Part shown: in pieces, positions 1,401 through 29,956 of the stretch
How the letters are laid out: each line of letters begins with the position of its first letter
Numbering within the stretch: position 1 is the stretch's first letter
Assembly: GCA_937996665.1 (NCBI GenBank)
Contig: CALKUU010000144.1
Coordinates: 1-49,426, forward strand
Origin: an uncultured Xenococcaceae cyanobacterium
Lineage (GTDB): Bacteria > Cyanobacteriota > Cyanobacteriia > Cyanobacteriales > Xenococcaceae
Reading direction: 5' to 3'
Length of the DNA stretch: 49,426 nt
Program-made: the position numbers and the translations under genes
The notes under the pieces: model-generated
What the model was told of the DNA's origin: nothing
The model's database searches: none
What the model saw: only the letters and a program-made list of their open reading frames with translations

Positions 1401-2384
1401 TTAAACAGTCTGAACTACTTTGCGCTCTTCGCCTAATTTCTGGGCAACTAAGTCCGCATGTTCCTCCATTGTGAGGATCTTAAATTGCTTCGACATCATG
1501 CCGATAACCTTGCTAACTATCTCTAGTTTTTTGGCACTGGTAAGGTTCATGGCTGGGAAGAAAGCTAGCGCTGGCAAGTCATCACCTCCGAGAAAGTCTA
1601 GTGGATGCAAGAGCAAAGATAAGGAAGTTCCTGTCCAACGGCAGAGTGTGAGGGCAAACCTGAAATATAACAACGCCAAAGTGGTTGAGAAACAACTGAG
1701 ATAGAGAATGTAGCTGAGGTGGATCGGTATTTTAATTAGGGGCATGGTCGTTACAGGAATTTCGATTAGCTTGCCAGCGTTGCCCAAATTTAATTGAAAG
1801 GGTTTTAACGGCTGGAAGCCATCTTGAAATTTGCCGAAAAGTGCTTTGCGTTTTTGCTTTTCTTCCTCAGTCAATTTCGCAGTCATGAAATAATAAGCCC
1901 TAGCCAAAGGACCAAGGAAAGAGGGAAAAGTAGAAGCATCGTAATGGTAACCACGATTAGCTAAAACTCGAAGGATGGAACGAGAATAGCTAAAGCCAGG
2001 TCCCCGAAAGCCAATCGGTCTTTTGCCTGTTGCCTTTTCGATATGCTTTTCTGCCAGACTTAGTTCTTGGGCAATTTCCTCTTCTGAGCGCAGGTGCAAC
2101 CAAGGTTCATGGTGAAAGGAATGATTGCCAATTTCATGTCCAGCATCGGCGATCGCTCTAAGTGCATGCTGATTTTTAGCTAGGGCAGCATCTTGACCAA
2201 CAATAAATACAGTTAGTTTCAAATTTTGTTTTTGAAAAAAGGTTAGAAAACGGGGTACTACTAAATCTAAATAAGAAGGAAAATCCTCCCAGCCCTCATC
2301 ACCATGGATTTTCATATAAGACCATTGATTGTCTAAATCTAGAGATAAGCTGGCAACAGGTTTTTGTTTGTTATTAAGTCTCAT
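1401..2384 (-). CDS. polysaccharide deacetylase family protein (NodB/CE4-like)
   Basis: This 327-aa protein has the NodB homology domain in its first 170 residues: an N-terminal strand SLDLDNQWSY carrying the catalytic/metal Asp pair, LTVFIVGQDA, the metal-binding GHEIGNHSFHHEPW (His-x3-His type), and GFRGPGFSY. Family members remove N- or O-acyl groups from polysaccharides. The catalytic motif is DLD rather than the textbook TFDDG, as in the more distant PuuE/DUF3473-type deacetylases, so substrate prediction is weak. A hydrophobic stretch around residues 215-250 is unusual for a soluble deacetylase and could be a membrane anchor. It lies downstream of the GT39-like gene but is separated by 141 bp holding a heptanucleotide repeat. 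Confidence 0.8.
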   Translation of the reverse strand: MRLNNKQKPVASLSLDLDNQWSYMKIHGDEGWEDFPSYLDLVVPRFLTFFQKQNLKLTVFIVGQDAALAKNQHALRAIADAGHEIGNHSFHHEPWLHLRSEEEIAQELSLAEKHIEKATGKRPIGFRGPGFSYSRSILRVLANRGYHYDASTFPSFLGPLARAYYFMTAKLTEEEKQKRKALFGKFQDGFQPLKPFQLNLGNAGKLIEIPVTTMPLIKIPIHLSYILYLSCFSTTLALLYFRFALTLCRWTGTSLSLLLHPLDFLGGDDLPALAFFPAMNLTSAKKLEIVSKVIGMMSKQFKILTMEEHADLVAQKLGEERKVVQTV

Positions 2385-2525: not shown

Positions 2526-4067
2526 CTATTTCCGCTCTAAGAATCTGACTCTTGATTTATAGAATTTTTTGCTAGAAGCAACGTTATAGTTTTTGCTTAC
2601 AAAATCTTCTAAAAAGTTGCAATTTAACTCTGTGCCAAAAGCCATACAGTTGCTATTAACCCTTTCAATTAGCCAAAGGTCATGGCGATCGCTTATCAAT
2701 GCCTGTTCGATTTCTGCTTCGCTAGTTAAGGCATAATTCTCTAGATTGTAGTTTTTAAAATCGTCCTTACGAGGCAAGGGCACAATCTGATTGATCCCGT
2801 TGTAATGGTAGTCAAGTTCGTCGGCAGATATTGAAGTAAATACCAAAATGTCTTGCTGCGGCTGTTCCGAGCTTTCTATATAGGCAGAGACCCTATGCCA
2901 ATCTCCTGCCTTAGCTAAACCCGAGTAATTTTTAGTTAAATTCTGAGCATAAAATAAGAGAACTATCACCGATAAAAAGATAGTAATTGTATTTCTAACT
3001 CGGGCATATTTGATTAAGGATAGGAGGAGAAATAACCCGAAGTAAGAAACAATAAAAATGCCAACAATATGACGAAACAGTAACAGTCCGTTGGTTGCTA
3101 CTAATATGCCCATGAAGAAAAATATTGAGGTAATATTAATCGTCCAAATAGCAATATGGTTATCCTTGATTAAGCGCAGATCGGTAGAAAATATCAGTGC
3201 CGCTAAAAATGCTAAAAGTAAAATCCCACAAGTGATTAACAAGGGGATCGGTAGGTTAGTAAAGTTCTCTAGAAATCCTGATACTTTAGATTGTTGAATT
3301 GCCGCAAAATTTTGCCAAAAACTATTTTCTGCATTGTGGGCATGGGTTGATACTTGGTTGAGCAGGAAGAACAGCATGGGAACAAAACACAGAGCCACTA
3401 TACTCATTCCCCAGGCATATCTCTTAACCCCTTGCCAACGTCGCAAAACCAATAACACTATGCCATTGGCAATTAGCAAGCAAGCCAAATAGTATTGGCT
3501 ATAGAGCGCCATTACTGCCAAGATCAAGTACAAAATTCTTGCTTTCGGCTGAGTTTTTTCGGCAAAATAACCATTAAAAAAGAACAATAATAATAAAGCT
3601 GATAAGAGCATGGCAAAGCCATAAACTCTTATTTCTAATGCCACCTTAATCGTGAAGGGGTTTAAGGCAAAGAGGGCAACAATCCAAACTGGATTAATAT
3701 TTTTGATTAATTTTTTGGCGAGGGCAGCAACTAGATAAATGGTTATGGCGATCGCGATAACTGAAGGTAAGCGCGCCCAAAAAATAGAACTATTAAGCGA
3801 TCGCCAGATATTTAATAAAGCAAAATATAAAGGGGGTTGCAGCTCAAAGTTAATTGCTTGACTAATCGCATATTGTAGACCCTTGCCTGTGGTATCTAGT
3901 GAGTAGGCTTCATCCGTCCAGATATTCAGCAGAGCTGCTAACGGGAGAGTGATCGCTAGGTTTAAGCAGACTATTAAATGAATTAGATAATCCTTGGTTA
4001 GTGAGAAAGAGGATCTATCCTTATCTATAAAATTGAGTGGTTTAGGTTTGGGAGAAGCAGATTTCAT
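2526..4067 (-). CDS. GT39/PMT-like integral-membrane glycosyltransferase
   Basis: This 513-aa multi-spanning membrane protein has the GT-C hallmarks of the dolichyl-phosphate-mannose protein mannosyltransferase/ArnT superfamily: a first extracytoplasmic loop with the catalytic-type acidic pair (WTDEAYSLDT) and, further on, QPPLYFALLNIWR. Many hydrophobic helices follow, and a soluble tail of about 110 residues closes the protein. Such enzymes use polyprenyl-phosphate-linked sugars as donors on the outer side of the membrane. I chose the ATG at 4067 rather than the in-frame TTG at 4082, since the latter abuts the stop of the upstream gene. The DPM1-like GT2 at the head of the same operon could make its donor. 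Acceptor unknown. Confidence 0.82.
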   Translation of the reverse strand: MKSASPKPKPLNFIDKDRSSFSLTKDYLIHLIVCLNLAITLPLAALLNIWTDEAYSLDTTGKGLQYAISQAINFELQPPLYFALLNIWRSLNSSIFWARLPSVIAIAITIYLVAALAKKLIKNINPVWIVALFALNPFTIKVALEIRVYGFAMLLSALLLLFFFNGYFAEKTQPKARILYLILAVMALYSQYYLACLLIANGIVLLVLRRWQGVKRYAWGMSIVALCFVPMLFFLLNQVSTHAHNAENSFWQNFAAIQQSKVSGFLENFTNLPIPLLITCGILLLAFLAALIFSTDLRLIKDNHIAIWTINITSIFFFMGILVATNGLLLFRHIVGIFIVSYFGLFLLLSLIKYARVRNTITIFLSVIVLLFYAQNLTKNYSGLAKAGDWHRVSAYIESSEQPQQDILVFTSISADELDYHYNGINQIVPLPRKDDFKNYNLENYALTSEAEIEQALISDRHDLWLIERVNSNCMAFGTELNCNFLEDFVSKNYNVASSKKFYKSRVRFLERK

Positions 4068-4082
4068 TTTATTTGCTAGCAA

Positions 4083-5210
4083 TTATTTAGGATCAATATT
4101 GGTAACTGGTAGTTTGCCAGCCTCTGATTTTTCAGTCTGGTCTTTCTCAGTCTGAGATTTGTTGGCAGCCGATTTAGCCGCAGATGATTTCACTGCCAGC
4201 AAATCTTGCCAAGACAAGCCTTGCCTAGTGGCGATCGCTAAGCCGATAACTGTTAAACTGGCATTCATTAGCAAATGCAAGGTAATGGCATAAGCAACAA
4301 TCACCCCAGGAGCAATGGGATAGACTTCTAATCCGAAGCGAACTCCCGCCTCAAAAGGGCCTAAATAGCCAGGGGAAGAGGGTACGACGATCGCTAGAGC
4401 TACGACACTTTGCACAAAAAGAGAGCCAATATAGCCAGGGGAAATAATCCCGAAAGCGATCGCGCAAAACCAGAAAGTCACCCCCATCATTCCCCAGATG
4501 CAAAAGGTTTCGATGATGGCGCTTAAGGAACGTCGGGGATATTTAAAAACATCTAGTCCTGCTAAGATGCCATTGACAGTGCTCACGATCTGAGACTTCC
4601 AGCGACTCAGACCAATTTTAGGGCAGATATTTTCTACAGCTCGGGCGATCATTTTCGGATACCAGGCTGCGATTAAAAAGATAGAGCAGCAACCAACTAG
4701 AACTACGGTAATTGAACCTAAGGGCAGATTCGCAAGCTTCGTTTCCTCAGACTGAGCGATAACTAGCAAGGAACCCAACAATAAGATAAATGCCACCAAA
4801 GCATCGAGTAATCTGGCAGTAAAAATGCTGCCAACTGAAGCCCCTAGGGGTACTTTACTGCGACGATGCAATAGCAAAGCTCTAACTAATTCGCCAATTC
4901 GTCCAGGGAAAACACAATTGCAGGCAAAACCGACAAAAATTGCGCTTAACCTACTGCCAAAACTGCCTGGATCGCGAGTTGCTCCGAGTAAAGTTCCCCA
5001 CCTTTTGGCTCTCACAAAATAAGAAGCGAGAAAAATTATCAAGCCCCCCAGTAACCATTCTGGACGTGCTTGTTGCCATGACTGAACTAGTAGCTCCCAA
5101 GATACTCCCCGTCCAGCCCAAGCCAACATGAGAATGGTGATCGCTGTGATCACTGCTATATATAGCCAGCGACGAATTTTAGTTGATAATTGAAGAGGAT
5201 TGTTGGTCAT
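4083..5210 (-). CDS. UPF0104/LPG-synthase-TM (YbhN-like) membrane protein
   Basis: This 375-aa integral membrane protein has the lysylphosphatidylglycerol-synthase transmembrane ('flippase-like') domain: an N-terminal helix, the segment WLLGGLIIFLASYFVRAKRW, the family-typical CVFPGRIGELVRALLL, and near the C-terminus VPSSPGYLGPFEAGV. It lacks the cytosolic MprF synthase domain. Homologues are often found in glycan and lipid loci and have been proposed to move lipid-linked substrates. The C-terminal 40 residues are Lys/Glu/Ala-rich and repetitive. The ATG at 5210 overlaps the upstream stop as ATGA, so translation is probably coupled; a longer start at 5234 would overlap by 28 bp and is less likely. 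Confidence 0.82.
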   Translation of the reverse strand: MTNNPLQLSTKIRRWLYIAVITAITILMLAWAGRGVSWELLVQSWQQARPEWLLGGLIIFLASYFVRAKRWGTLLGATRDPGSFGSRLSAIFVGFACNCVFPGRIGELVRALLLHRRSKVPLGASVGSIFTARLLDALVAFILLLGSLLVIAQSEETKLANLPLGSITVVLVGCCSIFLIAAWYPKMIARAVENICPKIGLSRWKSQIVSTVNGILAGLDVFKYPRRSLSAIIETFCIWGMMGVTFWFCAIAFGIISPGYIGSLFVQSVVALAIVVPSSPGYLGPFEAGVRFGLEVYPIAPGVIVAYAITLHLLMNASLTVIGLAIATRQGLSWQDLLAVKSSAAKSAANKSQTEKDQTEKSEAGKLPVTNIDPK

Positions 5211-6571
5211 AAGGCACTGTTTTCCTGAAGGCATTGCGAATCGAAGTTTGTCTTCTTGCTTTGACTGGAAAGAAGATGTTCCACCCCCTGCTTGGCTAGC
5301 TGAATAGTTTCGTTGACATTTAGGGTGCCATTACAAATATGGGCTGAGTTGATGATGTGTAGTCCCGGAATTGAAGTACTCATCGAGGGCAGGTTTTGCG
5401 AATAATTAAGAGTGGAAATGGCGAGAACTCTTCGTACCCTAGAGACCTGAAAACTAAGTAGATCATCATCTTGAAGATGGGGATACATGCGGCGCAGAGC
5501 AGTCCAAAACTGGACTTTGAGTTCTGCATCACTAAGCTCAAAAGTAGGATCTTCTGGAGTTACATATTTGGGAAGATACACCAAGGTATGACCACCAAAC
5601 TGCCTAGGGTCAACCAAGGTCGACATTTCAATCACTCCAGTAAAAGGAACCCAATCATCTGTAATGTTCGTTACATAGAAATTAGCTAATGGTTGTTTCA
5701 GTAGAAGCGAGGCACAAATAATCCCCTGATATTGAATGTCATTGAGCTTTTTTTTCTCGATCTCAGTTAATTCTGGACAAAGTTTGCTAGCGATCGCTGC
5801 GGGAGTGGTTAAGACTAGGCGATCGCAGACTGCTTGTTGTCCATTGCTAAATTCAACCTCAATTCCTCGGCTAGTTTGTCTAACCTCAGTTGCCAGGTGG
5901 TCAATTTCAATCTTGACCTGTTCCTCGGCTAAAATTTGAGCATAGCGATCCAGCATCCTGCCATAGCCCCCAGGCAGATAGCCAAACATTTCTTTTTTTA
6001 AGCCTGTCCGCCTAGCAGCATATAATCTGGCAATTATTGCCCAAATAAATGCCGCTGAAGCTTTTTTGTAGTTTCCCCCTAATTTTGAGCGCAAGAGGGG
6101 TAGCCATATTTTTTTGACAGTATACTTTCCTGACCATTTTGTCAGCCAGTCAACTACCGAGATCTGTTCTAATTTCTTGGGGGACTTGATCTTAGAACCA
6201 TAAATAATTGTCAGCGCAAAGCGAATTTTGCCAATTAGGTTAAGTGGGAAATAGCGCAGAAATTCCAAAGCATTGGAAATAGAGTAGAGCTTGCCATCGG
6301 TATATAAGCCCGTGCGCGTCTCTACCCAGTTCATTTCTCGCTCTAAACCAAGTTCTCTAAGCAGCGATCGCAATTCGGTATCCGAAAGTAAGGTAACGTG
6401 ATAATGTTTGTCCCAAACTATATCTCCCAATTGCCAGGCACTAGCAAGTCCTCCTAGTTGTTTATCTGCCTCAAACAGAGTTACTTTTTTGCCCTGCTTG
6501 GCTAAATCATGAGCCAGGGTCATGCCTAAAATACCGCCCCCGACAATACCCCAATGTTCTTGCTCGCTCAT
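5207..6571 (-). CDS. FAD-dependent oxidoreductase, amine-oxidase/UGM-like
   Basis: This 454-aa protein has a clear N-terminal dinucleotide-binding fold (GIVGGGILGMTLAHDLA, then an acidic strand end LFEADKQLGGLASAW) and a C-terminal half typical of the amine oxidase/protoporphyrinogen-oxidase superfamily, which includes UDP-galactopyranose mutase. Glycan-locus members of this type are common in cyanobacteria, usually annotated only as NAD(P)/FAD-dependent oxidoreductase. It sits 19 bp downstream of the acyltransferase and overlaps the UPF0104 gene by ATGA, so it should work on the same glycan or lipid intermediate. A mutase, epimerase or desaturase role is possible; the sequence does not decide. 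Confidence 0.8.
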   Translation of the reverse strand: MSEQEHWGIVGGGILGMTLAHDLAKQGKKVTLFEADKQLGGLASAWQLGDIVWDKHYHVTLLSDTELRSLLRELGLEREMNWVETRTGLYTDGKLYSISNALEFLRYFPLNLIGKIRFALTIIYGSKIKSPKKLEQISVVDWLTKWSGKYTVKKIWLPLLRSKLGGNYKKASAAFIWAIIARLYAARRTGLKKEMFGYLPGGYGRMLDRYAQILAEEQVKIEIDHLATEVRQTSRGIEVEFSNGQQAVCDRLVLTTPAAIASKLCPELTEIEKKKLNDIQYQGIICASLLLKQPLANFYVTNITDDWVPFTGVIEMSTLVDPRQFGGHTLVYLPKYVTPEDPTFELSDAELKVQFWTALRRMYPHLQDDDLLSFQVSRVRRVLAISTLNYSQNLPSMSTSIPGLHIINSAHICNGTLNVNETIQLAKQGVEHLLSSQSKKTNFDSQCLQENSAL

Positions 6572-6590
6572 ACTTTCAACTTAATTTATT

Positions 6591-7214
6591 TTATGACGGA
6601 GGAGTTAACTCAATAACTTCACGGTCTTGAATTTGATATTTTAGTCCGCAGGCTTTACAGCTAATTTCTGCTATGTTTACCTTTGTTCCATCGGTGGGAA
6701 ATCGCATTAACGGTTCTCCGCAACGACAGACACACCCTACCGAAGTGGCAGGATGTCCCATTGCTAAGTGGAAATCAGGAATAGATTTAGTTACCAGTGA
6801 AGCCATCCCCACCATGGCAAAGCGACCGATAACCAGATCATTGCCAATGGTGCAAGCAGCACCAATTGTTGCCCCTGAACGCACCAAAGTTGGGAGGGTA
6901 TGTTCGTCAGGGTCAGAAGATTTGAGTTCTTGCAAATCCGTTGTCGCCGAACGAGGAAAGCGATCATTGGTAAAAATAGTTCCAGCACTAATCATCACCC
7001 CATCTTCGATCGTCACTGCATTACAGATATAGACAAAAGAGTTTATTTTGACTCGGTTCCCAATTTTTACCCCGTAGGCAATGTAGGTTTTTCCGCCAAT
7101 AATGCACTGATCACCGATTTGAGTCGAATGGCGCACATGAACGTTATCCCAAATTGATGAACCAGAGCCGATTTTGACTTCTGCTTCAATAATGGCAGTT
7201 GGATGAATTTTCAT
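6591..7214 (-). CDS. WbpD-like hexapeptide-repeat N-acyltransferase with zinc ribbon
   Basis: This 207-aa protein is a left-handed beta-helix acyltransferase with repeated [ILV]G-x4 hexapeptides over residues 10-155. It has the WbpD/WlbB pattern: KIGSGSSIWDNVHVR, KINSFVYICNAVTIEDGV, FTNDRFPRS, then an HTLPTLVRSGATIGA segment. WbpD/WlbB acetylate the 3-amine of UDP-2-acetamido-3-amino-2,3-dideoxyglucuronate. After the helix comes a cysteine-rich tail, CVCRCGEPL and CKACGLKY, which looks like a four-cysteine zinc ribbon not found in the short family members. The dehydrogenase and aminotransferase genes just upstream match WbpB and WbpE, supporting the same pathway step. The actual sugar is inferred. 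Confidence 0.85.
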   Translation of the reverse strand: MKIHPTAIIEAEVKIGSGSSIWDNVHVRHSTQIGDQCIIGGKTYIAYGVKIGNRVKINSFVYICNAVTIEDGVMISAGTIFTNDRFPRSATTDLQELKSSDPDEHTLPTLVRSGATIGAACTIGNDLVIGRFAMVGMASLVTKSIPDFHLAMGHPATSVGCVCRCGEPLMRFPTDGTKVNIAEISCKACGLKYQIQDREVIELTPPS

Positions 7215-7249
7215 TGGCTGCTTATAGATTGGCTAGTAGCTGCTATTTT

Positions 7250-7282
7250 TTGCAGATATATGCTTTTTGCACATATCTGCAA
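7250..7282 (-). promoter_or_regulatory. 14-bp inverted repeat between acyltransferase and dehydrogenase genes
   Basis: Two 14-bp arms (7250-7263 and 7269-7282) flank a 5-nt loop. The single DNA mismatch becomes a G-U pair in the minus-strand transcript, so the RNA hairpin is complete in the direction of the operon. No U-run follows on that strand, so it is not a standard terminator; an mRNA-processing or stability element, or an operator, is more likely. Confidence 0.6.
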
Positions 7283-7317
7283 GGAGCTGGGTTATTTTTG
7301 ATTTAGATTTTGTTTAT

Positions 7318-8316
7318 TTAGGCGGCCTTGGAAGCAATACTTGTCCATTTGCTTTGTTGCAAAGCTGCATAAGCTGCTTCAATTGCTTCCACCGAGGCTA
7401 AAGCATCTTCTGCGGTAATTAAAAGTTGCTCTTGACCGAGGATGGTACGGGAGAAGTTATCAATCTGGCTTTGAAATGCCTGAATTTTGTTATAGCCTGT
7501 GCCAAAAACTACCCAGTCATCTTGGGGAGACTGACGGTACTTAGATTCTTGCCAACCAACGGATATAGTTCCCTCAGATCCATAGATGCGTAGGAAATAA
7601 TCAAGCTCTTTGTTAATACTCCAAGAAAGATCGATATTGCCCATTACGCCGCCATTACTTTTGATGAAGATCCTGACTGTATCTTCTACTGATAGCTCTT
7701 GGATGCGTTTGCCTTCGACTACCTGTACTTTTGCTAATGACCCTAGAAAATAACGAGTGATATCTACTGAGTGGGTGCCATTATCGATTAAAACTCCTCC
7801 CCCACTAATTTTGGGATCAGAGTTCCAGCGAGAAGACATATCTACTCTAGAAGTAAAGGCATTTTCAAAGAGAACAATTTCTCCAATTGCGCCAGAAGCA
7901 ACTAGGTCTTTGGCTTTAATGACGTCTTCAACATAGCGAAATTTGGATGCCATGGTTAGAAGCACACCCTCTTTCTGACTAGCTTTGAGCATCTTTCTCG
8001 CACTCAAACTATCGATACTCAATGGTTTTTCACAAAGGACATTAATTCCCTGTTTGATCGCTGCTAAGGCAATCTCTAGGTGAGTTACGGGGGGAGTACA
8101 GATAATTAACGCATCTATTTCAGCGCCTGCGAACATTGCTTGATGGGAGTCATAGCTAGGGCAATTAGCTTCTTTAGCTAGATCTGCCGCCGCTTGGGGA
8201 CGGACATCAGCGATCGCTACTAGTTCACCACAATTGCTACTCTTAAATGCTTGAACATAAGCCTTGGCGATCGCTCCCGCACCAACCAAGCCAAATTTAA
8301 TTTTTGATTCTGTCAT
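7318..8316 (-). CDS. Gfo/Idh/MocA-family sugar dehydrogenase (WbpB/WlbA-like)
   Basis: This 332-aa protein has an N-terminal Rossmann domain (FGLVGAGAIAKAYVQAF, residues about 7-23), VAIADVRP, CTPPVTHLEIA and the family signature LCEKPLS with the catalytic-type lysine of the EKP motif. The C-terminal alpha/beta domain includes GGGVLIDNGTHSVDITRYFLG, where the conserved D and H of the active site are present. In the WbpB/WlbA role it would oxidise C3 of a UDP-sugar to give the keto substrate for the neighbouring aminotransferase. The gap to the aminotransferase gene is 37 bp, consistent with one operon. Other sugar or inositol dehydrogenase activities remain possible. Confidence 0.87.
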   Translation of the reverse strand: MTESKIKFGLVGAGAIAKAYVQAFKSSNCGELVAIADVRPQAAADLAKEANCPSYDSHQAMFAGAEIDALIICTPPVTHLEIALAAIKQGINVLCEKPLSIDSLSARKMLKASQKEGVLLTMASKFRYVEDVIKAKDLVASGAIGEIVLFENAFTSRVDMSSRWNSDPKISGGGVLIDNGTHSVDITRYFLGSLAKVQVVEGKRIQELSVEDTVRIFIKSNGGVMGNIDLSWSINKELDYFLRIYGSEGTISVGWQESKYRQSPQDDWVVFGTGYNKIQAFQSQIDNFSRTILGQEQLLITAEDALASVEAIEAAYAALQQSKWTSIASKAA

Positions 8317-8353
8317 GGGTTTATATTTAGTTATTATTTTGTTTGTTATCGGT

Positions 8354-9568
8354 TTAACTCAATACCTGCTTAATAGCCTGAGCGATATAGTCCACATGCT
8401 CATCGGTATAGTTTTCATTCCAAGGAAGGACAAGGACACTTTCTAGACCGGCAAATGTACCAGGGTACTGATCAGGGTTATAATCAACCGCCTCAGGACT
8501 AGCTAGGGTGAAGGGGAAACGAGACTTGCCAAAAGTGCGCTGTTCACGGAATATTTCGCACTGGAATGCTGGTTTTTGAATATAGCGAGGTGCAGAGAAA
8601 ATACCTTTTTCTTCTTTGAGCGCTTTTGCTAAGCCCACTGCACCACCTTCTACTAAGTTACTATCCACACTCAAGCAATATTTCCAGTAACTATGAAGGT
8701 TGCGTGGGTCAATCTTAGGAGTAGCAATCCCAGGAATATCTTTGATCTTTTCAGTAAGTTGATTAGCTGTAGTCCGACGACGGTTAACAATGTCAGTTAA
8801 TTTGGTCAGTTGAGCTGTCGCTACTGCTCCTTGCAATTCACTCATTCGATAATTAAGTGCTAGGAAATAGTGATCAGGTTTAGGATCGCCATAACCCCAG
8901 GCTTTGTTAATCGCCAAAAAGGTGCGACGAGCAAAAGCATCGTTGTTGGTTGTAATTAAACCACCTTCACCTGTGGTGATGTGCTTTCCTTGCTGCAAAC
9001 TAAAACAGCCAATATCTCCAATTGAACCAATGTTTTGACCATTATGAGTTGCTAGTAGCGCTTGAGCTGCATCTTCGATAACAGGAATGTTATGGGCTTT
9101 CGCTAGCTCCATAATCTCAGTCATATTGCAAGGATTCCCAAAGAGATGGGTGACGATAATTCCTTTAGTGCGCTCAGTGATTTTAGGGGCGATGGTTTCG
9201 GCTGTTACGTTCCAAGTTTTGGGGTCGACATCTGCAAAGACAGGAATTGCTCCTTGATACAAAATCGGCGTTAACGCACCCATATCAGTAATAGAGGTGG
9301 TGATGATTTCATCCCCTGGTTCAGGATCAATAGCTGCGATCGCTACATGAATTGCTCCCGACCCAGAAGTGCAAGCATAAGCATGTTTAACTCCTAAGAG
9401 CTGGGCAAAATCATGTTCCAACTGTTTGACAAAAGTTCCCTTGGTTCCAGTTAGAGTACCACTTTGAATAACTTTAGTGAGTAGAGCTAACTCTTCATCG
9501 CCAAGAGTACGTCCAGAAGAATTTTGATCTGAAGGTAATGTTAATGATGGATCTTTAGATAAAACCAT
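8354..9568 (-). CDS. DegT/DnrJ/EryC1/StrS-family aminotransferase (WbpE-like)
   Basis: This 404-aa PLP enzyme of the sugar aminotransferase family shows TSGSGAIHVAIAA, the PLP-binding IPVIEDAAQA, the internal-aldimine lysine in FSLQQGKHITTGEGG, and NYRMSELQGAVATAQL. The QGKHITTGEGG version of the lysine motif is also seen in inosose-type aminotransferases, so cofactor use is certain but the substrate is not. Next to the Gfo/Idh/MocA dehydrogenase and the WbpD-like acyltransferase, it most simply fits the amination step of a 3-acylamino sugar. The start ATG is preceded by an A/T-rich stretch with only weak ribosome-binding similarity. Confidence 0.88.
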   Translation of the reverse strand: MVLSKDPSLTLPSDQNSSGRTLGDEELALLTKVIQSGTLTGTKGTFVKQLEHDFAQLLGVKHAYACTSGSGAIHVAIAAIDPEPGDEIITTSITDMGALTPILYQGAIPVFADVDPKTWNVTAETIAPKITERTKGIIVTHLFGNPCNMTEIMELAKAHNIPVIEDAAQALLATHNGQNIGSIGDIGCFSLQQGKHITTGEGGLITTNNDAFARRTFLAINKAWGYGDPKPDHYFLALNYRMSELQGAVATAQLTKLTDIVNRRRTTANQLTEKIKDIPGIATPKIDPRNLHSYWKYCLSVDSNLVEGGAVGLAKALKEEKGIFSAPRYIQKPAFQCEIFREQRTFGKSRFPFTLASPEAVDYNPDQYPGTFAGLESVLVLPWNENYTDEHVDYIAQAIKQVLS

Positions 9569-9598
9569 TTTTTTATTCCTATTTTTTTATATTTATGC

Positions 9599-10708
9599 CT
9601 AATTTTTTTTACTTGATTTGTAAATAGCTGTTCCTAAATAGAAAATCTCCTCAAAATAATTTTTAGTTTGCAAAGACAAAATGCCGATACTCAGAAACTG
9701 GATTGCAATTATTAAACTCATTCCCCCAATAATAAAAGAGTGAGGATATTGGTAGAACGCGGCTGCAACCACTTCCGTAAGATCCGGAAAAAACGTTTGT
9801 TCGGCGAATATTTGGTACTGCCCCCAACAGTGGATTAACACCCAGATATTGGCATACAAAGAACATGCCAATAAGATCAAACCAGGGACTAGAAAAAACA
9901 TTACCGGTCTGAAAATAAATCCCGATAAAATGACCGCCATCGTATGCCGCAGAATTTTCATGCTGGACTTACGCTGCTGGCGTTGCTGACGTTTGCTTGG
10001 CTTCGCTTTAGGCGACTTCCAATGTAAATGGGCAGGAATTTCCTCAATCCTGGCATTGAGAAGCATCGTCTTATGGATCACTTCTGGATTGATCTCCATC
10101 CCCGTAGATCTCAAGTTTAGCGATCGCAAAAACCTGCCATCATAAACTCTGACCATGCCAGTTAGAGTGACTACATCTCCTTTGACTGCCATAGCTAAAA
10201 AACGATTAGCCCAAATGCTTAACGTTTTTCTTGACCAAGGCACATTGGATATTTTGCCCGAGGGCATATAAGGGGAAGCAACCACCATCCTGGCATTAGT
10301 TATTCGGATTTTCTCAAGCAGTTTTTCAATGTGATAAGGAGCATAGCTTAAGTCCAAATCAAAGACTATCAAGTAGTCAGCCAGAGAGTGATTAAAGGCA
10401 AACTTTAAAGCTTGACCCAAGCCAAAATTGATCCCATGATGCAAAACCCTGACATGGGATTTTCCTCTAGCAAAAGACTCTGCCAGTGGACCAGTATCAT
10501 CTGTGCTGCCATCATTCACCACCAACATCTCCCAACGATAATCTCCCTTAAGAGACTGCATGTACTCTTCGAGGATTCCCAGGTTTTCTTCGATGATTGC
10601 TGCTTCGTTGTAAGCAGGTAGAACCAGGGAAACAAGAGGTTTTACCCTTATTTCTTGCTCCTGACTGTAGATATTGCTGCCTAGATAATCTAACCCTTGA
10701 TCGGTCAA
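9599..10708 (-). CDS. DPM1-like GT2 glycosyltransferase with C-terminal membrane anchor
   Basis: This 369-aa protein carries a GT-A fold GT2 domain over residues about 22-245: SLVLPAYNEAAIIEENLG, VVNDGSTDDTG, and the metal-binding DLDLSYAP (DxD). Two hydrophobic segments follow (about 250-285 and 325-350), as in polyprenyl-phosphate mannose/glucose synthases such as DPM1, GtrB and ArnC relatives. The likely reaction is transfer of a sugar from a nucleotide donor to polyprenyl phosphate on the cytosolic face. It begins at TTG; an in-frame stop lies 11 codons upstream with no ATG or GTG between, and GGAAAG sits at ribosome-binding distance. It is the first gene of the minus-strand operon. Confidence 0.85.
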   Translation of the reverse strand: MTDQGLDYLGSNIYSQEQEIRVKPLVSLVLPAYNEAAIIEENLGILEEYMQSLKGDYRWEMLVVNDGSTDDTGPLAESFARGKSHVRVLHHGINFGLGQALKFAFNHSLADYLIVFDLDLSYAPYHIEKLLEKIRITNARMVVASPYMPSGKISNVPWSRKTLSIWANRFLAMAVKGDVVTLTGMVRVYDGRFLRSLNLRSTGMEINPEVIHKTMLLNARIEEIPAHLHWKSPKAKPSKRQQRQQRKSSMKILRHTMAVILSGFIFRPVMFFLVPGLILLACSLYANIWVLIHCWGQYQIFAEQTFFPDLTEVVAAAFYQYPHSFIIGGMSLIIAIQFLSIGILSLQTKNYFEEIFYLGTAIYKSSKKN

Positions 10709-21462: not shown

Positions 21463-22764
21463 ATGAAGATAAGTATTTTCGGTCTTGGTTATGTCGGTGT
21501 TGTTACCGCAGCTTGCTTGGCTAGAGATGGACATCATGTAGTTGGCGTGGATTTAAACCCAGATAAGGTGTCCCTGATTGCCAGAGGAGAATCTCCAATT
21601 ATTGAGCCGGGCTTGAAGGAGTTACTTCAGTATGGTGTTCAGTCGAATCGTATTGAGGCAACTGTCGATGCCGAAGCAGCAGTAATAAATTCTGATATGT
21701 CCCTAATTAGTGTTGGGACTCCCCCAATGGAAAGAGGGGAACCGGATTTAAGTTATGTAATTAGTGTTTGTAAAGATATCGCCTTAGCCATTAAGAAAAA
21801 AGGTTCTTCCCATGTCGTAATGATCCGCAGCACAGTTCCTCCTGGAACACTCAAGCGTTGCCAAGAGCTGATGGAAGATGTTTGTGGGCAAGATTCTGTT
21901 CATGTTGCTTTTAATCCGGAATTTTTAAGGGAAGGTTCGGCGATTCGTGACTATGACTGTCCTCCTTATACAATTATTGGTACTGAGTCAGCGATCGCTG
22001 AACAAGCTGTTCGAGATCTTTATGCCAAGGTTGAAGGCAAAGTTATGGTAGTAGAGCCAGAAGTGGCAGAAATGGTTAAGTATGTGGCGAATACTTGGCA
22101 TGCAACTAAAGTCAGCTTTGCTAATGAAATTGGCAGACTAGCCAAGGCTTTCAATGTTGATGGACGAGAAATAATGAACATCATTGTGCAAGATGAGAAG
22201 TTAAATGTTTCTCCTGTCTATATGCGTCCAGGATTTGCTTATGGCGGTTCTTGTCTACCGAAAGATTTAGGCGCTCTCCTATATTTTGCGCGAGCGAAAG
22301 ATCTTTTCGTTCCTATGCTGAACGCACTTCCTGCAACCAATAACTTGCAAATAGATTTAGCAGCGCGGAAAATTCTAGGTTATGGAGTCAAAAAGATCGC
22401 CATTTTTGGTTTAGCGTTTAAAGCTAATACCGATGATTTGCGAGAAAGTCCTACTGTTCCTCTTGTCAAACGCCTTTTGGGAGAAGGCTGTGAGGTAAAA
22501 ATTTACGATCCTGCGGTTAATGAAACCCAATTGATGGGGACAAATTTAACTTATATTCAGCAGCATCTACCTCACTTTGCTAATTTGCTAGTTACTAATC
22601 CTGAAGAGGCTTTAGCTGATTCCGACTTGGTGGTAGCGACTCATCGTACACCAGAATTTCAACAGCTTTTACAGCAATTGCCAGAAACAACTAAAATCTT
22701 TGATTTGGTTGGTGTTTTCGATCACGCACCAGCAGTTCCTCAGTATGAAGGATTGGCCTGGTAG
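21463..22764 (+). CDS. UDP-glucose/GDP-mannose 6-dehydrogenase family, AlgD-like
   Basis: This 433-aa four-electron nucleotide-sugar dehydrogenase starts with the NAD-binding FGLGYVGVVTAACLARDG and has NPEFLREGSAI, the NEIGRLAK helix, the catalytic cysteine in YGGSCLPKDLGAL, and IFGLAFKANTDDLRESP. Length and the pattern MRPGFAYGGSCLPKDL with EVAEMVKYVANTWHATKVSFANE are closer to AlgD (GDP-mannose 6-dehydrogenase, 436 aa) than to the typical Ugd, from my memory of those proteins. It would supply GDP-mannuronate or UDP-glucuronate for an acidic polysaccharide. A single HIP1 site lies within it. Substrate specificity is inferred. Confidence 0.9.
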   Translation: MKISIFGLGYVGVVTAACLARDGHHVVGVDLNPDKVSLIARGESPIIEPGLKELLQYGVQSNRIEATVDAEAAVINSDMSLISVGTPPMERGEPDLSYVISVCKDIALAIKKKGSSHVVMIRSTVPPGTLKRCQELMEDVCGQDSVHVAFNPEFLREGSAIRDYDCPPYTIIGTESAIAEQAVRDLYAKVEGKVMVVEPEVAEMVKYVANTWHATKVSFANEIGRLAKAFNVDGREIMNIIVQDEKLNVSPVYMRPGFAYGGSCLPKDLGALLYFARAKDLFVPMLNALPATNNLQIDLAARKILGYGVKKIAIFGLAFKANTDDLRESPTVPLVKRLLGEGCEVKIYDPAVNETQLMGTNLTYIQQHLPHFANLLVTNPEEALADSDLVVATHRTPEFQQLLQQLPETTKIFDLVGVFDHAPAVPQYEGLAW

Positions 22765-28000: not shown

Positions 28001-29956
28001 GTGAAAGAAAAACTTGGATGGTATTTTGACCGTTTACGAGCCATGTCTCCTGAAGAGATTGCAACTCGCACTAGTCTGGCTATAAAAAAGAAAATTTGGC
28101 AACGTCGTTCCCGCTGGATTTCTCCTCAGCCGAATTTTCATGAGGTAAATCTAATTGAGAGGGATAGCTGGGATTTTCCCAACTTAGAATTAGAGAAGAT
28201 CAACGAAGCAGAAAAAGAAAATCTTTTACGAGAGGCTGATCGTTATCTAGAGGGGAAATATACTCTTCTAAACTTTGATTTTGTCGAACCAGAAATTGAC
28301 TGGCATCTTGATCCCCAAACGGGTAAGCGTCCCCCTTTAGAGTTCGGGCCTAATCTAAATTACCGTGACCCATCCTTAGCAGGTAACGCTAAAAACATTT
28401 GGGAGAAAAATCGACATCATCATCTCACTATTCTTGCCCTAGCCTATCGGCTTACTAAGCAAGAAGACTATGCTTTGGCAGTGGAAAAGCAACTGCAATC
28501 TTGGATCAAAACAAACCCTGTCCCTCTAGGCATAAATTGGAGTAGTTCTTTAGAGCTAGGTGTTCGTCTCATTTCTTGGAGTTGGTGCGATCGCTTACTG
28601 AGAGACAGTTCTGTTCATACCCGTCTTTTTGGCTCACAAGGACTGTTATGGTCATCAATCTACTGGCACCAATGGTTCATCGTCCAGCACTATTCTCAAG
28701 GCTCCTCAGCCAATAACCACTTGATCGGCGAAATGGCGGGACTATTTATTACTACTTACCTGTGGCCAGTATTTCCCGAATCTACAAGTTGGCAATCTCT
28801 GTCTCGAAAGTCACTAGAGCAGGAAGTATCTAGACAAACCTTCGAAAGCGGACTCAACCGAGAGCAAGCCTTTTCCTACCAAATATTTTCTCTCGAATTT
28901 TTCCTCCTAGCTGGATTAGAAGCTGAGAGACTATCCGACTCATTCTCTCCTACCTACAAAGATTGGGTCAAACGGATGCTGGAGATAATTCCATTTATAA
29001 TGGATATTGGCGGCAATCTACCCCAATACGGAGATGGGGATGATGGAATGGCACTTCAACTGAGACCCATCAACTCTTCTCGTCTCGACTGGCTTTTCCA
29101 TCTTGGTCGTCAGTGGTTAGGTGCTAAAGTCCCACTTCCCTCAATCAATTGCGGTTTATTAACCTCTAGACTCATTTGTTCAAGTCTTCAAGATGAAGTG
29201 GTTACAGTAGAATCTCCCCAAGGCTCAGTTAGTCTAGATGACGCGGGACTCTTTGTTTTAGCCTCTCAGCGAGGTCAAGAAGATGAGGTCTTTTGTCTAG
29301 CCGATGCTGGTTGCCTAGGATTCCTTTCTATAGCGGCTCATGGTCATGCTGATGCCCTTTCATTCACCTTAAGCGTCGGTGGTGTACCGATAATTGTCGA
29401 TCCAGGAACCTATATTTATCATGCGGAGCCTCAATGGCGGGACTATTTTCGTAGTACGAAAGCTCATAATACGATTATGGTAGATGGTGTTGATCAGTCT
29501 GAGCCAGCAGGTATTTTTTTGTGGAAGCAGAAAGCTCAAGCTAAGGTTTTGTCTTGGGAAGAGAAACCTGAAGGCGCAATTCTCCTTGCTGAGCATGATG
29601 GTTATATGCGGCTAAAAGAAGGAGTTGTTCATCGTCGCAGTTTAGCGTTGGAGAACAAAAGTCTAGAAATTAAAGATGATATTCAAGGTAATGGATCTCA
29701 CGATTTGGAGTGGCGTATTCATTTCTCTCCTCAATGTGAGTTGAGTCTTAAAGACAATTCTTGTATAGTTACTTGGTCAGAAGGTAGGCTAGAGATAAAC
29801 CTTGATTCTCAGTTGGAATGGTCTTTATCTCGAGGAGAACAAGAGGCTGGTTGGTATTCATCCGGTTTTAATCGTAAGCAGATGAGCTATACCTTGTCAG
29901 GATTGATAAGTGCTAATGTACCTATCAGTTTCAGTAACGTTGTAAAAATCGGTTAA
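28001..29956 (+). CDS. heparinase II/III family protein
   Basis: This 651-aa protein has an N-terminal alpha/alpha toroid (about 1-370) with NYRDPSLAGNAKNIWE, INWSSSLELGVRLISW and the catalytic-region SANNHLIGEMAGLF, followed by the heparinase II/III beta-sandwich with AHGHADALSFTLSVGG, PGTYIYH and YFRSTKAHNTIMVDG, all hallmark segments. Related enzymes are PL12/PL15/PL17/PL21-type lyases that cleave uronate polymers. No signal peptide is visible: the start KEKLGWYFDRLRAMSPEEI is the standard start of EPS-locus members, some of which may act in the cytosol or be exported otherwise. The start codon is GTG. It could trim or edit the locus product. Confidence 0.9.
   Translation: MKEKLGWYFDRLRAMSPEEIATRTSLAIKKKIWQRRSRWISPQPNFHEVNLIERDSWDFPNLELEKINEAEKENLLREADRYLEGKYTLLNFDFVEPEIDWHLDPQTGKRPPLEFGPNLNYRDPSLAGNAKNIWEKNRHHHLTILALAYRLTKQEDYALAVEKQLQSWIKTNPVPLGINWSSSLELGVRLISWSWCDRLLRDSSVHTRLFGSQGLLWSSIYWHQWFIVQHYSQGSSANNHLIGEMAGLFITTYLWPVFPESTSWQSLSRKSLEQEVSRQTFESGLNREQAFSYQIFSLEFFLLAGLEAERLSDSFSPTYKDWVKRMLEIIPFIMDIGGNLPQYGDGDDGMALQLRPINSSRLDWLFHLGRQWLGAKVPLPSINCGLLTSRLICSSLQDEVVTVESPQGSVSLDDAGLFVLASQRGQEDEVFCLADAGCLGFLSIAAHGHADALSFTLSVGGVPIIVDPGTYIYHAEPQWRDYFRSTKAHNTIMVDGVDQSEPAGIFLWKQKAQAKVLSWEEKPEGAILLAEHDGYMRLKEGVVHRRSLALENKSLEIKDDIQGNGSHDLEWRIHFSPQCELSLKDNSCIVTWSEGRLEINLDSQLEWSLSRGEQEAGWYSSGFNRKQMSYTLSGLISANVPISFSNVVKIG

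Follow-up and report, generated by a model that had tools for sequence, protein, structure and literature searches.

A conserved gene set around a flavoenzyme of cyanobacteria and other bacteria: a possible route to a polyprenyl-phosphate-linked amino sugar

What is made by a run of bacterial genes that combines amino-sugar synthesis, a putative polyprenyl-phosphate sugar synthase, and an uncharacterized flavoenzyme, and which of these genes belong together? We address this question for a stretch of 49,426 nucleotides (the window) from an uncultured Xenococcaceae cyanobacterium (contig CALKUU010000144.1 of assembly GCA_937996665.1, a genome of 4.15 Mb in 349 contigs). Eight genes on its minus strand are at issue: a core six, encoding a family 2 glycosyltransferase (GT2), an aminotransferase, a dehydrogenase, an N-acyltransferase, a flavin adenine dinucleotide (FAD) enzyme, and a polysaccharide deacetylase, and an accessory pair, encoding an UPF0104 membrane protein and a GT-C glycosyltransferase. 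The gene around which the core set is conserved is that of the FAD enzyme, which was also the chosen anchor of our survey; a sequence-only reading of the window had called this enzyme the odd part of the locus. We give an even chance to the reading that the cassette prepares an amino sugar linked to polyprenyl phosphate, taking the lipid-linked route as a whole.

Within the order Cyanobacteriales, the genes for the GT2, the aminotransferase, the deacetylase, and a close FAD enzyme are present or absent jointly. We sampled the order by a single draw of 120 genomes, among them the window's own, and searched these at E ≤ 1e-40 for the deacetylase and GT2, E ≤ 1e-90 for the aminotransferase, E ≤ 1e-60 for the FAD enzyme, and E ≤ 1e-20 for UPF0104 and GT-C. 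Deacetylase, GT2, and aminotransferase were each found in 6/120 genomes, and these were the identical six (G000, G037, G060, G071, G088, and G091), spread over four families; none of the remaining 114 genomes held a GT2, aminotransferase, or deacetylase at the cutoffs used. The FAD gene was found in nine genomes, comprising those six (66 to 69% identity; 100% for the window's own) and three more. The dehydrogenase and acyltransferase were traced in the regions fetched from the five other carriers and are present there. None of the five other sampled genomes of the window's own family matched, so the distribution is patchy.

The same set recurs far beyond this order. Scanning with the FAD protein, we obtained 181 relatives, and the results across phyla concern the best 80 of these 181, the majority of which are metagenome bins; taxon labels are those on the sequence records. 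These 80 loci come from Cyanobacteria, Planctomycetota, Acidobacteriota, Verrucomicrobiota, Myxococcota/"Deltaproteobacteria," Bacteroidota, Ignavibacteria, and Acidimicrobiia. Once the eight window proteins were mapped onto the loci, the order aminotransferase-dehydrogenase-acyltransferase-FAD enzyme-deacetylase was found on one strand in 30 of the 53 loci with enough flank, in about six phylum-level groups (14 planctomycete, 7 cyanobacterial, 3 acidobacterial, 2 verrucomicrobial, and 2 acidimicrobial loci and 1 each from Myxococcota and Deltaproteobacteria). The ordered set also occurs in isolates, among them Microseira wollei, Spirulina subsalsa, Tolypothrix campylonemoides, Limnoglobus roseus, and Adhaeretor mobilis. 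Among the 23 exceptions, the deacetylase lies farther off or on the opposite strand in L020 and L043 (11 kb away on the contig of L020), and L021, whose deacetylase was sought within the locus only, is likely similar to L020, because UPF0104 lies 10 kb off in both. Single genes were not found in five loci (L031, L038, L039, L050, and L054); six others (L046, L051, L062, L085, L098, and, in a rearranged form, L047) hold FAD and deacetylase genes without the three sugar-synthesis genes; and in nine (L071, L074, L077, L078, L082, L083, L087, L093, and L096) the FAD gene alone of the ordered set stands on its strand. The acyltransferase and deacetylase go together: over 57 loci, both occur in 36, the acyltransferase only in 3 (one being L020, with its more distant deacetylase), the deacetylase only in 8, and neither in 10. 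Distances among the five core proteins of the 30 ordered loci are correlated (r of 0.49 to 0.81, with 0/1,000 permutations as high) in a manner that would fit joint inheritance, a result that weighs little, since such distances also share the species signal.

In 36/43 loci, the FAD gene has a GT2 (at least 150 bits in a profile search) no more than 9 kb away on its own strand, and the pair persists where much of the cassette does not. Ten loci with enough flank have neither acyltransferase nor deacetylase, and eight of these, all Pirellulaceae, retain a GT2 that ends 95 to 366 bp before the FAD gene; other Pirellulales hold the full set. In the one such pair tested (L082), the best solved match of the GT2 is dolichol-phosphate-mannose synthase (95.2 bits), followed by ArnC, and a GT87 protein follows the FAD enzyme. 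Of the 53 loci with at least 8 kb of downstream sequence, 37 have a GT-C gene of either the window's broad group or a GT87-like cluster no more than 9 kb from the FAD gene and on its strand. Nine of the 80 loci carry a gene resembling decaprenyl-phosphate phosphoribosyltransferase, one representative of which passes the NF008977 cutoff.

The window's own GT2 points the same way. Among solved structures it best matches dolichol-phosphate-mannose synthase, 5mlz (57.1 bits), and ArnC comes next; a DLD motif stands at residue 117, and a simple hydrophobicity scan places helices at about residues 264 to 282 and 326 to 344, in agreement with the DPM1-like enzyme with two C-terminal helices that the sequence-only reading had described. 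The ArnC equivalog is matched at 39.1 bits (cutoff, 529).

What sugar would be loaded? The four solved matches of the aminotransferase at E ≤ 1e-50 are one sugar aminotransferase and perosamine synthetases, and its score against the ArnB equivalog is 179.0 bits (cutoff, 631). For the dehydrogenase, the best NCBIfam match is inositol dehydrogenase (141.1 bits; cutoff, 355) and the second is NF040723, the 3-dehydrogenase of uridine diphosphate-N-acetylglucosamine (UDP-GlcNAc), at 122.7 bits (cutoff, 450); solved matches include 3q2k, which we take to be WlbA. The acyltransferase passes no NCBIfam cutoff, and its best solved match, presumably WlbB, is 3mqg (119.8 bits over residues 3 to 197, C-terminal tail included). 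From these nearest matches, the product is likely a 3-amino sugar, and the two candidates, UDP-GlcNAc3NAc and UDP-GlcNAc3NAcA, are indistinguishable as judged from these genes. The route to UDP-GlcNAc3NAc has a GnnA/GnnB-like start. UDP-GlcNAc3NAcA is named as the product of the Wbp route in a section of PMC10622841; neither WbpA nor WbpI is encoded inside the cassette.

The deacetylase retains the motifs SLDLDN, NHSxxH, RxPG, and LLHP invariantly across 42 aligned relatives, and in 42/42 of them the first catalytic motif starts after 7 to 22 residues, counted from the first possible start codon, so that the true N termini can only be shorter. There is thus no signal peptide, and the enzyme would be cytoplasmic and act before export. 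Identity with ArnD has no support from sequence, as no ArnD family is among the NCBIfam matches at E ≤ 0.001; the two share the NodB fold, and the Foldseek matches are CE4 deacetylases, with ArnD (8t0j) at rank 17. Its match to the XrtA-system family TIGR03006 (63.6 bits) is under the cutoff of 276.2.

The lipid-linked route is supported because the GT2 is nearest to dolichol-phosphate-mannose synthase and ArnC and its pairing with the FAD gene is kept in Pirellulaceae; because GT-C genes are frequent near the FAD gene, where genes resembling another polyprenyl-phosphate-sugar enzyme, the phosphoribosyltransferase, also occur; and because a cytoplasmic deacetylase is coupled to the acyltransferase and co-occurs with GT2, aminotransferase, and FAD genes. 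A different explanation arises from the surroundings, since the region that adjoins the cassette is an exopolysaccharide locus. Beyond the GT2 side lie an acetyltransferase-like open reading frame (ORF), a Wzy-like protein, an FkbM methyltransferase, a Wzx-like flippase, and a Wzz/BY-kinase, and next outward are several glycosyltransferases, a UDP-sugar dehydrogenase, a heparinase-like lyase, and a bacterial sugar transferase. The core genes could then be ordinary nucleotide-sugar genes of this locus, in which the aminotransferase, dehydrogenase, and acyltransferase would make UDP-GlcNAc3NAc or the acid, the GT2 would add it to an undecaprenyl-diphosphate repeat unit, and the deacetylase and FAD enzyme would modify either the nucleotide sugar or the lipid-linked repeat unit; a monophosphate donor would play no part. 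The adjoining Wzx/Wzy/BY-kinase cluster with its glycosyltransferases and sugar transferase speaks for this, as do the WlbB-like acyltransferase, the fact that no curated family assigns the GT2, and L016, where a run at 2921-10371 of UDP-sugar dehydrogenase, Gfo/Idh/MocA protein, hexapeptide protein, aminotransferase, epimerase, and, directly after these, a 43% FAD homologue resembles a Wbp operon with a FAD gene added. We nevertheless consider it rather unlikely, given the nearest matches of the GT2, the retention of such a GT2 by the FAD gene in 8/10 loci without acyltransferase and deacetylase, and the frequency of GT-C neighbors.

The FAD enzyme passes NF005560/PRK07233 (452.9 bits; cutoff, 252), a family that bears the functionless name "hypothetical protein." The best fold matches of its AlphaFold2 model (predicted local distance difference test score [pLDDT], 92.6) are phytoene desaturase (Z of 33.6, root mean square deviation of 3.3, 435 residues aligned) and protoporphyrinogen oxidases. 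In its sequence profile, the best 60 of 119 matches begin with phytoene dehydrogenase, protoporphyrinogen oxidase, and amine oxidases and continue with other flavoproteins, matched mostly via the dinucleotide-binding N terminus. UDP-galactopyranose mutase (4dsg/4dsh) is in the fold lists at the level of many oxidases, so that a mutase role may be possible. The residues invariant in 57 relatives include K115, R117, E135, K163, R182, R187, K193, E194, Y281, Y299, Y336, and Y390; these charged and tyrosine residues would fit a phosphorylated or sugar substrate. Our tentative proposal is that the enzyme acts on the lipid-linked sugar, a step performed in mycobacterial arabinan synthesis by DprE1, a flavoenzyme of another family. 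Alternatively, it would saturate or desaturate the polyprenyl chain and so furnish a special carrier lipid for the GT2, which concerns the FAD step alone and is compatible with the lipid-linked route. The best folds are those of enzymes with lipophilic substrates, as this alternative would have it, but the fold is common to many unrelated oxidases and the invariant residues would suit a phosphorylated or sugar substrate, and we think a chain-modifying role unlikely.

The accessory pair was central to the sequence-only reading, in which seven genes, the deacetylase omitted, formed a complete, self-contained unit that makes, loads, flips, and transfers a sugar. UPF0104 passes PF03706 at 146.3 bits (gathering cutoff, 33.4), and GT-C carries DE at residue 57 and QPP at residue 82 (a QPPLY motif), by which it resembles enzymes that use polyprenyl-phosphate sugars; together with its PMT_2 match, these motifs agree with the GT39-like assignment made earlier. 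ArnE/ArnF and GtrA were rejected as the flippase, since neither family is matched among the eight window proteins and UPF0104 is there instead. The predicted co-occurrence is real in that relatives of UPF0104 and GT-C among the 120 genomes were confined to carriers, UPF0104 at 9 to 11 kb or less from the FAD gene, but it is incomplete, for UPF0104 was found in 5/6 carriers and GT-C in 3/6. Single-sequence tblastn undercounts both proteins, hence our use of PF03706 and an iterated profile; L023, on the same Microseira record as G091, has a GT-C of the broad group that the order search missed. We sought PF03706 in the genomes of 35/80 loci (16 cyanobacterial, 19 other) and compared each hit with the FAD contig. 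UPF0104 lay within about 12 kb on that contig in 7/16 cyanobacterial loci and in 1/19 others, there on the opposite strand, while 31/35 genomes held a protein over the PF03706 cutoff somewhere, so that mere presence is uninformative. The iterated UPF0104 profile matched only six loci. The broad GT-C group is diverse (9 to 69% identity to the window protein), with DE and PPLY as majority residues and only the PP pair reaching 90%; a scan of 55 sequences (54 of the 59 members of the group and the window's own) gave PMT_2 matches for 45 and PMT matches for 6. UPF0104 and GT-C are therefore linked to the cassette in the order and are not obligatory. The seven-gene unit as originally written draws on this confinement to carriers and on archaeal UPF0104 genes that adjoin PMT/STT3-like enzymes and glycosyltransferases, as part of one account has it (PMC5898192); since it leaves out a core gene whose place in the order is kept in 30/53 loci and counts in two inconstant ones, we regard it as very unlikely, and "complete" and "self-contained" go beyond the evidence.

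UPF0104 also invites comparison with glycolipid synthesis, in which phosphatidylglycerol or a hopanoid would be the membrane lipid glycosylated by the GT2, the deacetylase would free the amine, UPF0104 would flip the product, and GT-C would extend it. The gpgSDF genes combine a glycosyltransferase, a deacetylase, and UPF0104 in this way, according to the portion of PMC12713373 consulted, and the FAD enzyme is weakly similar to HpnE (94.9 bits; cutoff, 283.05). Against this, GpgS (GT4) and GpgD (COG3233) are given there as members of other families, and squalene-hopene cyclase is over its cutoff in 17/36 cassette genomes and unmatched in 7/16 cyanobacterial ones (the window's own excluded), a distribution that rules out a hopanoid as the general acceptor. 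UPF0104 was, moreover, not found near the FAD gene in 27/35 loci, some of them on short contigs, and glycolipid synthesis seems to us quite unlikely.

We can now set out the lipid-linked route step by step; its substrates, its acceptor, and the relative order of its FAD and deacetylase steps are all inferred. The dehydrogenase and aminotransferase would aminate a UDP-N-acetylhexosamine at C3, and the WlbB-like acyltransferase would acetylate the new amine. The DPM1/ArnC-like GT2 would transfer the sugar onto polyprenyl phosphate, where the FAD enzyme might alter it by oxidation or reduction, by analogy with DprE1 in decaprenyl-phosphate-arabinose synthesis, and the cytoplasmic deacetylase would free the amine in the manner of ArnD. 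In this lineage, UPF0104 would flip the lipid, and GT-C would transfer the sugar outside, probably onto the exopolysaccharide of the adjoining Wzx/Wzy/BY-kinase cluster.

Several observations weigh against this scheme. The 27/35 loci with no UPF0104 near the FAD gene yielded no other identified flippase, and a GT-C gene lies directly downstream on the same strand in only two of the eight GT2-FAD pair loci (L082 and L093). Every curated equivalog cutoff lies far above the score of the GT2, which could use an acceptor other than polyprenyl phosphate. The fold of the FAD enzyme is common to amine oxidases, desaturases, and UDP-galactopyranose mutase, so its substrate is unreadable from the fold, and G067, G085, and G102 carry a distant FAD homologue (42 to 46% identity) with no GT2, aminotransferase, or deacetylase at the cutoffs used. 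Because 8/57 loci have a deacetylase and no acyltransferase, a cycle of acetyl protection and deprotection is not general. A wider generalization is more doubtful than the FAD step itself: that the PRK07233 flavoenzyme is a dedicated partner of DPM1-like polyprenyl-phosphate-sugar synthases and tailors the lipid-linked sugar in an acetylate-load-oxidize-deacetylate pathway, its order kept from cyanobacteria to planctomycetes, acidobacteria, and actinobacteria, as a widespread, unrecognized branch.

Table 1. Positions in the window and family assignments of the eight genes, in reading direction
Predicted product	Positions	Strand	Family match	Place in the set
Putative polyprenyl-phosphate sugar synthase: GT2 resembling DPM1/ArnC, two membrane helices at the C terminus	9599..10708	-	Glycos_transf_2	core
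DegT-family pyridoxal phosphate-dependent sugar aminotransferase	8354..9568	-	DegT_DnrJ_EryC1 PF01041, 293.5 bits	core
Gfo/Idh/MocA sugar dehydrogenase, predicted UDP-GlcNAc(A) 3-dehydrogenase	7318..8316	-	GFO_IDH_MocA PF01408	core
Left-handed beta-helix N-acyltransferase, WlbB/WbpD-like	6591..7214	-	Hexapep	core
FAD oxidoreductase, NF005560/PRK07233, amine-oxidase/phytoene-desaturase fold	5207..6571	-	Amino_oxidase	core, survey anchor
UPF0104/LPG_synthase_TM membrane protein, predicted flippase	4083..5234 (likely start 5210)	-	PF03706	accessory
PMT_2-type (GT39/GT83-like) GT-C glycosyltransferase	2526..4082	-	PMT_2, 35.3 bits (cutoff, 26.1)	accessory, variable
CE4/NodB-type polysaccharide deacetylase, no room for a signal peptide	1401..2384	-	PF01522, 75.2 bits	core

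The seven minus-strand genes first recognized are all present as ORFs, and Pfam confirms the families named for them (Table 1). In reading direction, the gaps are 30 bp (GT2-aminotransferase), 37 bp (aminotransferase-dehydrogenase), 103 bp (dehydrogenase-acyltransferase), and 19 bp (acyltransferase-FAD enzyme). The ATGA coupling between the FAD and UPF0104 genes falls at 5210-5207, as proposed, if UPF0104 starts at 5210; its first ATG would give a 28-bp overlap. UPF0104 and GT-C are 0 to 15 bp apart, and the deacetylase gene lies 141 bp past GT-C. Between 1300 and 11600, promoter-like patterns (24 found; 22.3 ± 4.6 by chance) and terminator-like patterns (10 found; 9.3 ± 3.2 by chance) are at chance level, so that operon structure is neither shown nor refuted. 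An inverted repeat at 7251-7281, in the dehydrogenase-acyltransferase gap, reads GCAGATATGTGC, five A, and GCATATATCTGC on the minus strand, with one G-T pair, and the plus-strand scan lists a terminator-like site there. A short GAGTTAGGAGTT-type repeat stands at about 2489-2522, between the GT-C and deacetylase genes, and the window is rich in GCGATCGC, which we take to be the HIP1 repeat; this richness, like the relatives of its proteins, identifies the DNA as cyanobacterial. Two predicted polysaccharide lyases, PL14-like and heparinase II/III-like (435-1364 and 28001-29956), flank or lie inside the exopolysaccharide locus; considered alongside the UDP-sugar dehydrogenase (21463-22764), they may point to a polymer of uronic acid.

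The wider set of loci shows further variation. One ORF matches both GT2 and deacetylase profiles in 20/80 loci, mostly planctomycete and acidobacterial; an NCBIfam scan of one of these (L064) gives an XrtA-like deacetylase domain (TIGR03006, 261.0 bits; cutoff, 276.2) followed by a GT2 domain, and apparent fusions of this XrtA-like/DPM1-like kind are L064:5301-7070, L075:4772-6712, and L035:5170-6873. The phosphoribosyltransferase-like gene stands beside the cassette in L039, L041, L042, L052, L054, L055, L060, L067, and L090, several of which add two GT-C genes and a HAD-like phosphatase, possibly a pentofuranose branch. In Bacteroidota (L085, L098, L062, L090, and L061), the FAD-deacetylase genes are placed after a UDP-sugar dehydrogenase, and in four of these five a gene ahead of it is asparagine synthase-like by eye, a hint of an amidated uronic acid. 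The Pleurocapsa bin (L019) has its deacetylase, GT-C, and UPF0104 on the strand opposite the FAD gene, and a further, incomplete FAD gene lies on a different contig of it (G120:C390). ORF clusters c0, c1, c2, c3, c5, c6, c8, c9, c10, and smaller ones were discarded as shadow ORFs because of their position over genes of the opposite strand or of a different frame.

The earlier interpretation is thus partly supported, and its load-flip-transfer idea and UPF0104 flippase prediction are already in print. In the titles and abstracts searched, which cover few subscription journals, we found no account of the six-gene set or of a coupling between PRK07233 and a DPM1-like GT2, and no paper under the name PRK07233. 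If the proposal is true, an uncharacterized family of flavoenzymes and a family of cytoplasmic deacetylases, which lie side by side in several phyla, would gain a functional context, and cyanobacteria, planctomycetes, and acidobacteria would be expected to bear an amino sugar on their surface, perhaps with its amine free. It is established for the Arn pathway and for mycobacterial arabinan synthesis that sugars linked to lipids in this way influence the charge of the surface and the response to drugs. Cultured carriers include Microseira wollei, Planktothricoides, and Limnoglobus roseus.

How does the cassette compare with known systems? With WbpB/WbpE/WbpD and Wlb (UDP-GlcNAc3NAcA), it has in common a Gfo/Idh/MocA dehydrogenase, a DegT aminotransferase, and a WlbB-like N-acetyltransferase; it differs in lacking WbpA and WbpI and in adding the FAD enzyme, deacetylase, and GT2. 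GpgSDF (glucosaminyl-phosphatidylglycerol, Pseudomonas aeruginosa) likewise sets a glycosyltransferase, a deacetylase, and UPF0104 side by side, and in the part of the source at hand (PMC12713373) flipping is unproven; its acceptor is a phospholipid, and the cassette has a GT2 and a PF01522 protein in place of its GT4 and COG3233 enzymes. UPF0104 itself is a predicted flippase from archaeal gene neighborhoods, by the same partial account as above (PMC5898192). Gtr and pentofuranose three-component systems combine a polyprenyl-phosphate-sugar synthase, a flippase, and a GT-C, some with redox tailoring by DprE1/DprE2, which change the lipid-linked sugar in mycobacterial arabinan synthesis, as excerpts of PMC11127046 describe. 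The cassette would share this architecture, to judge by a PMT_2 match over the cutoff for GT-C and, for the GT2, only by its nearest solved structures; it has UPF0104 in place of GtrA/MATE, a FAD enzyme of amine-oxidase fold, and internal nucleotide-sugar genes. In the Arn route, an amino sugar is made, acylated, loaded on polyprenyl phosphate, deacylated, flipped, and transferred, to follow the relevant passage of PMC10632790. ArnBCADTEF, which delivers 4-amino-4-deoxy-L-arabinose (Ara4N) to lipid A, resembles the cassette in a DegT aminotransferase and an ArnC-like GT2, both at the level of superfamilies, in a NodB-fold deacylase without signal peptide, a possible membrane flippase, and a GT-C, and in an N-acyl group that in the cassette, too, would be added ahead of loading and removed afterward. 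A formyltransferase domain like that of ArnA is absent from all eight proteins; a 3-dehydrogenase and a hexapeptide acyltransferase stand in for that formylation. The best reading by analogy, then, is a pathway that would work along the lines of ArnBCD-EF-T, in which acetylation takes the place of formylation and UPF0104 that of ArnEF, and to which a flavin step is added.

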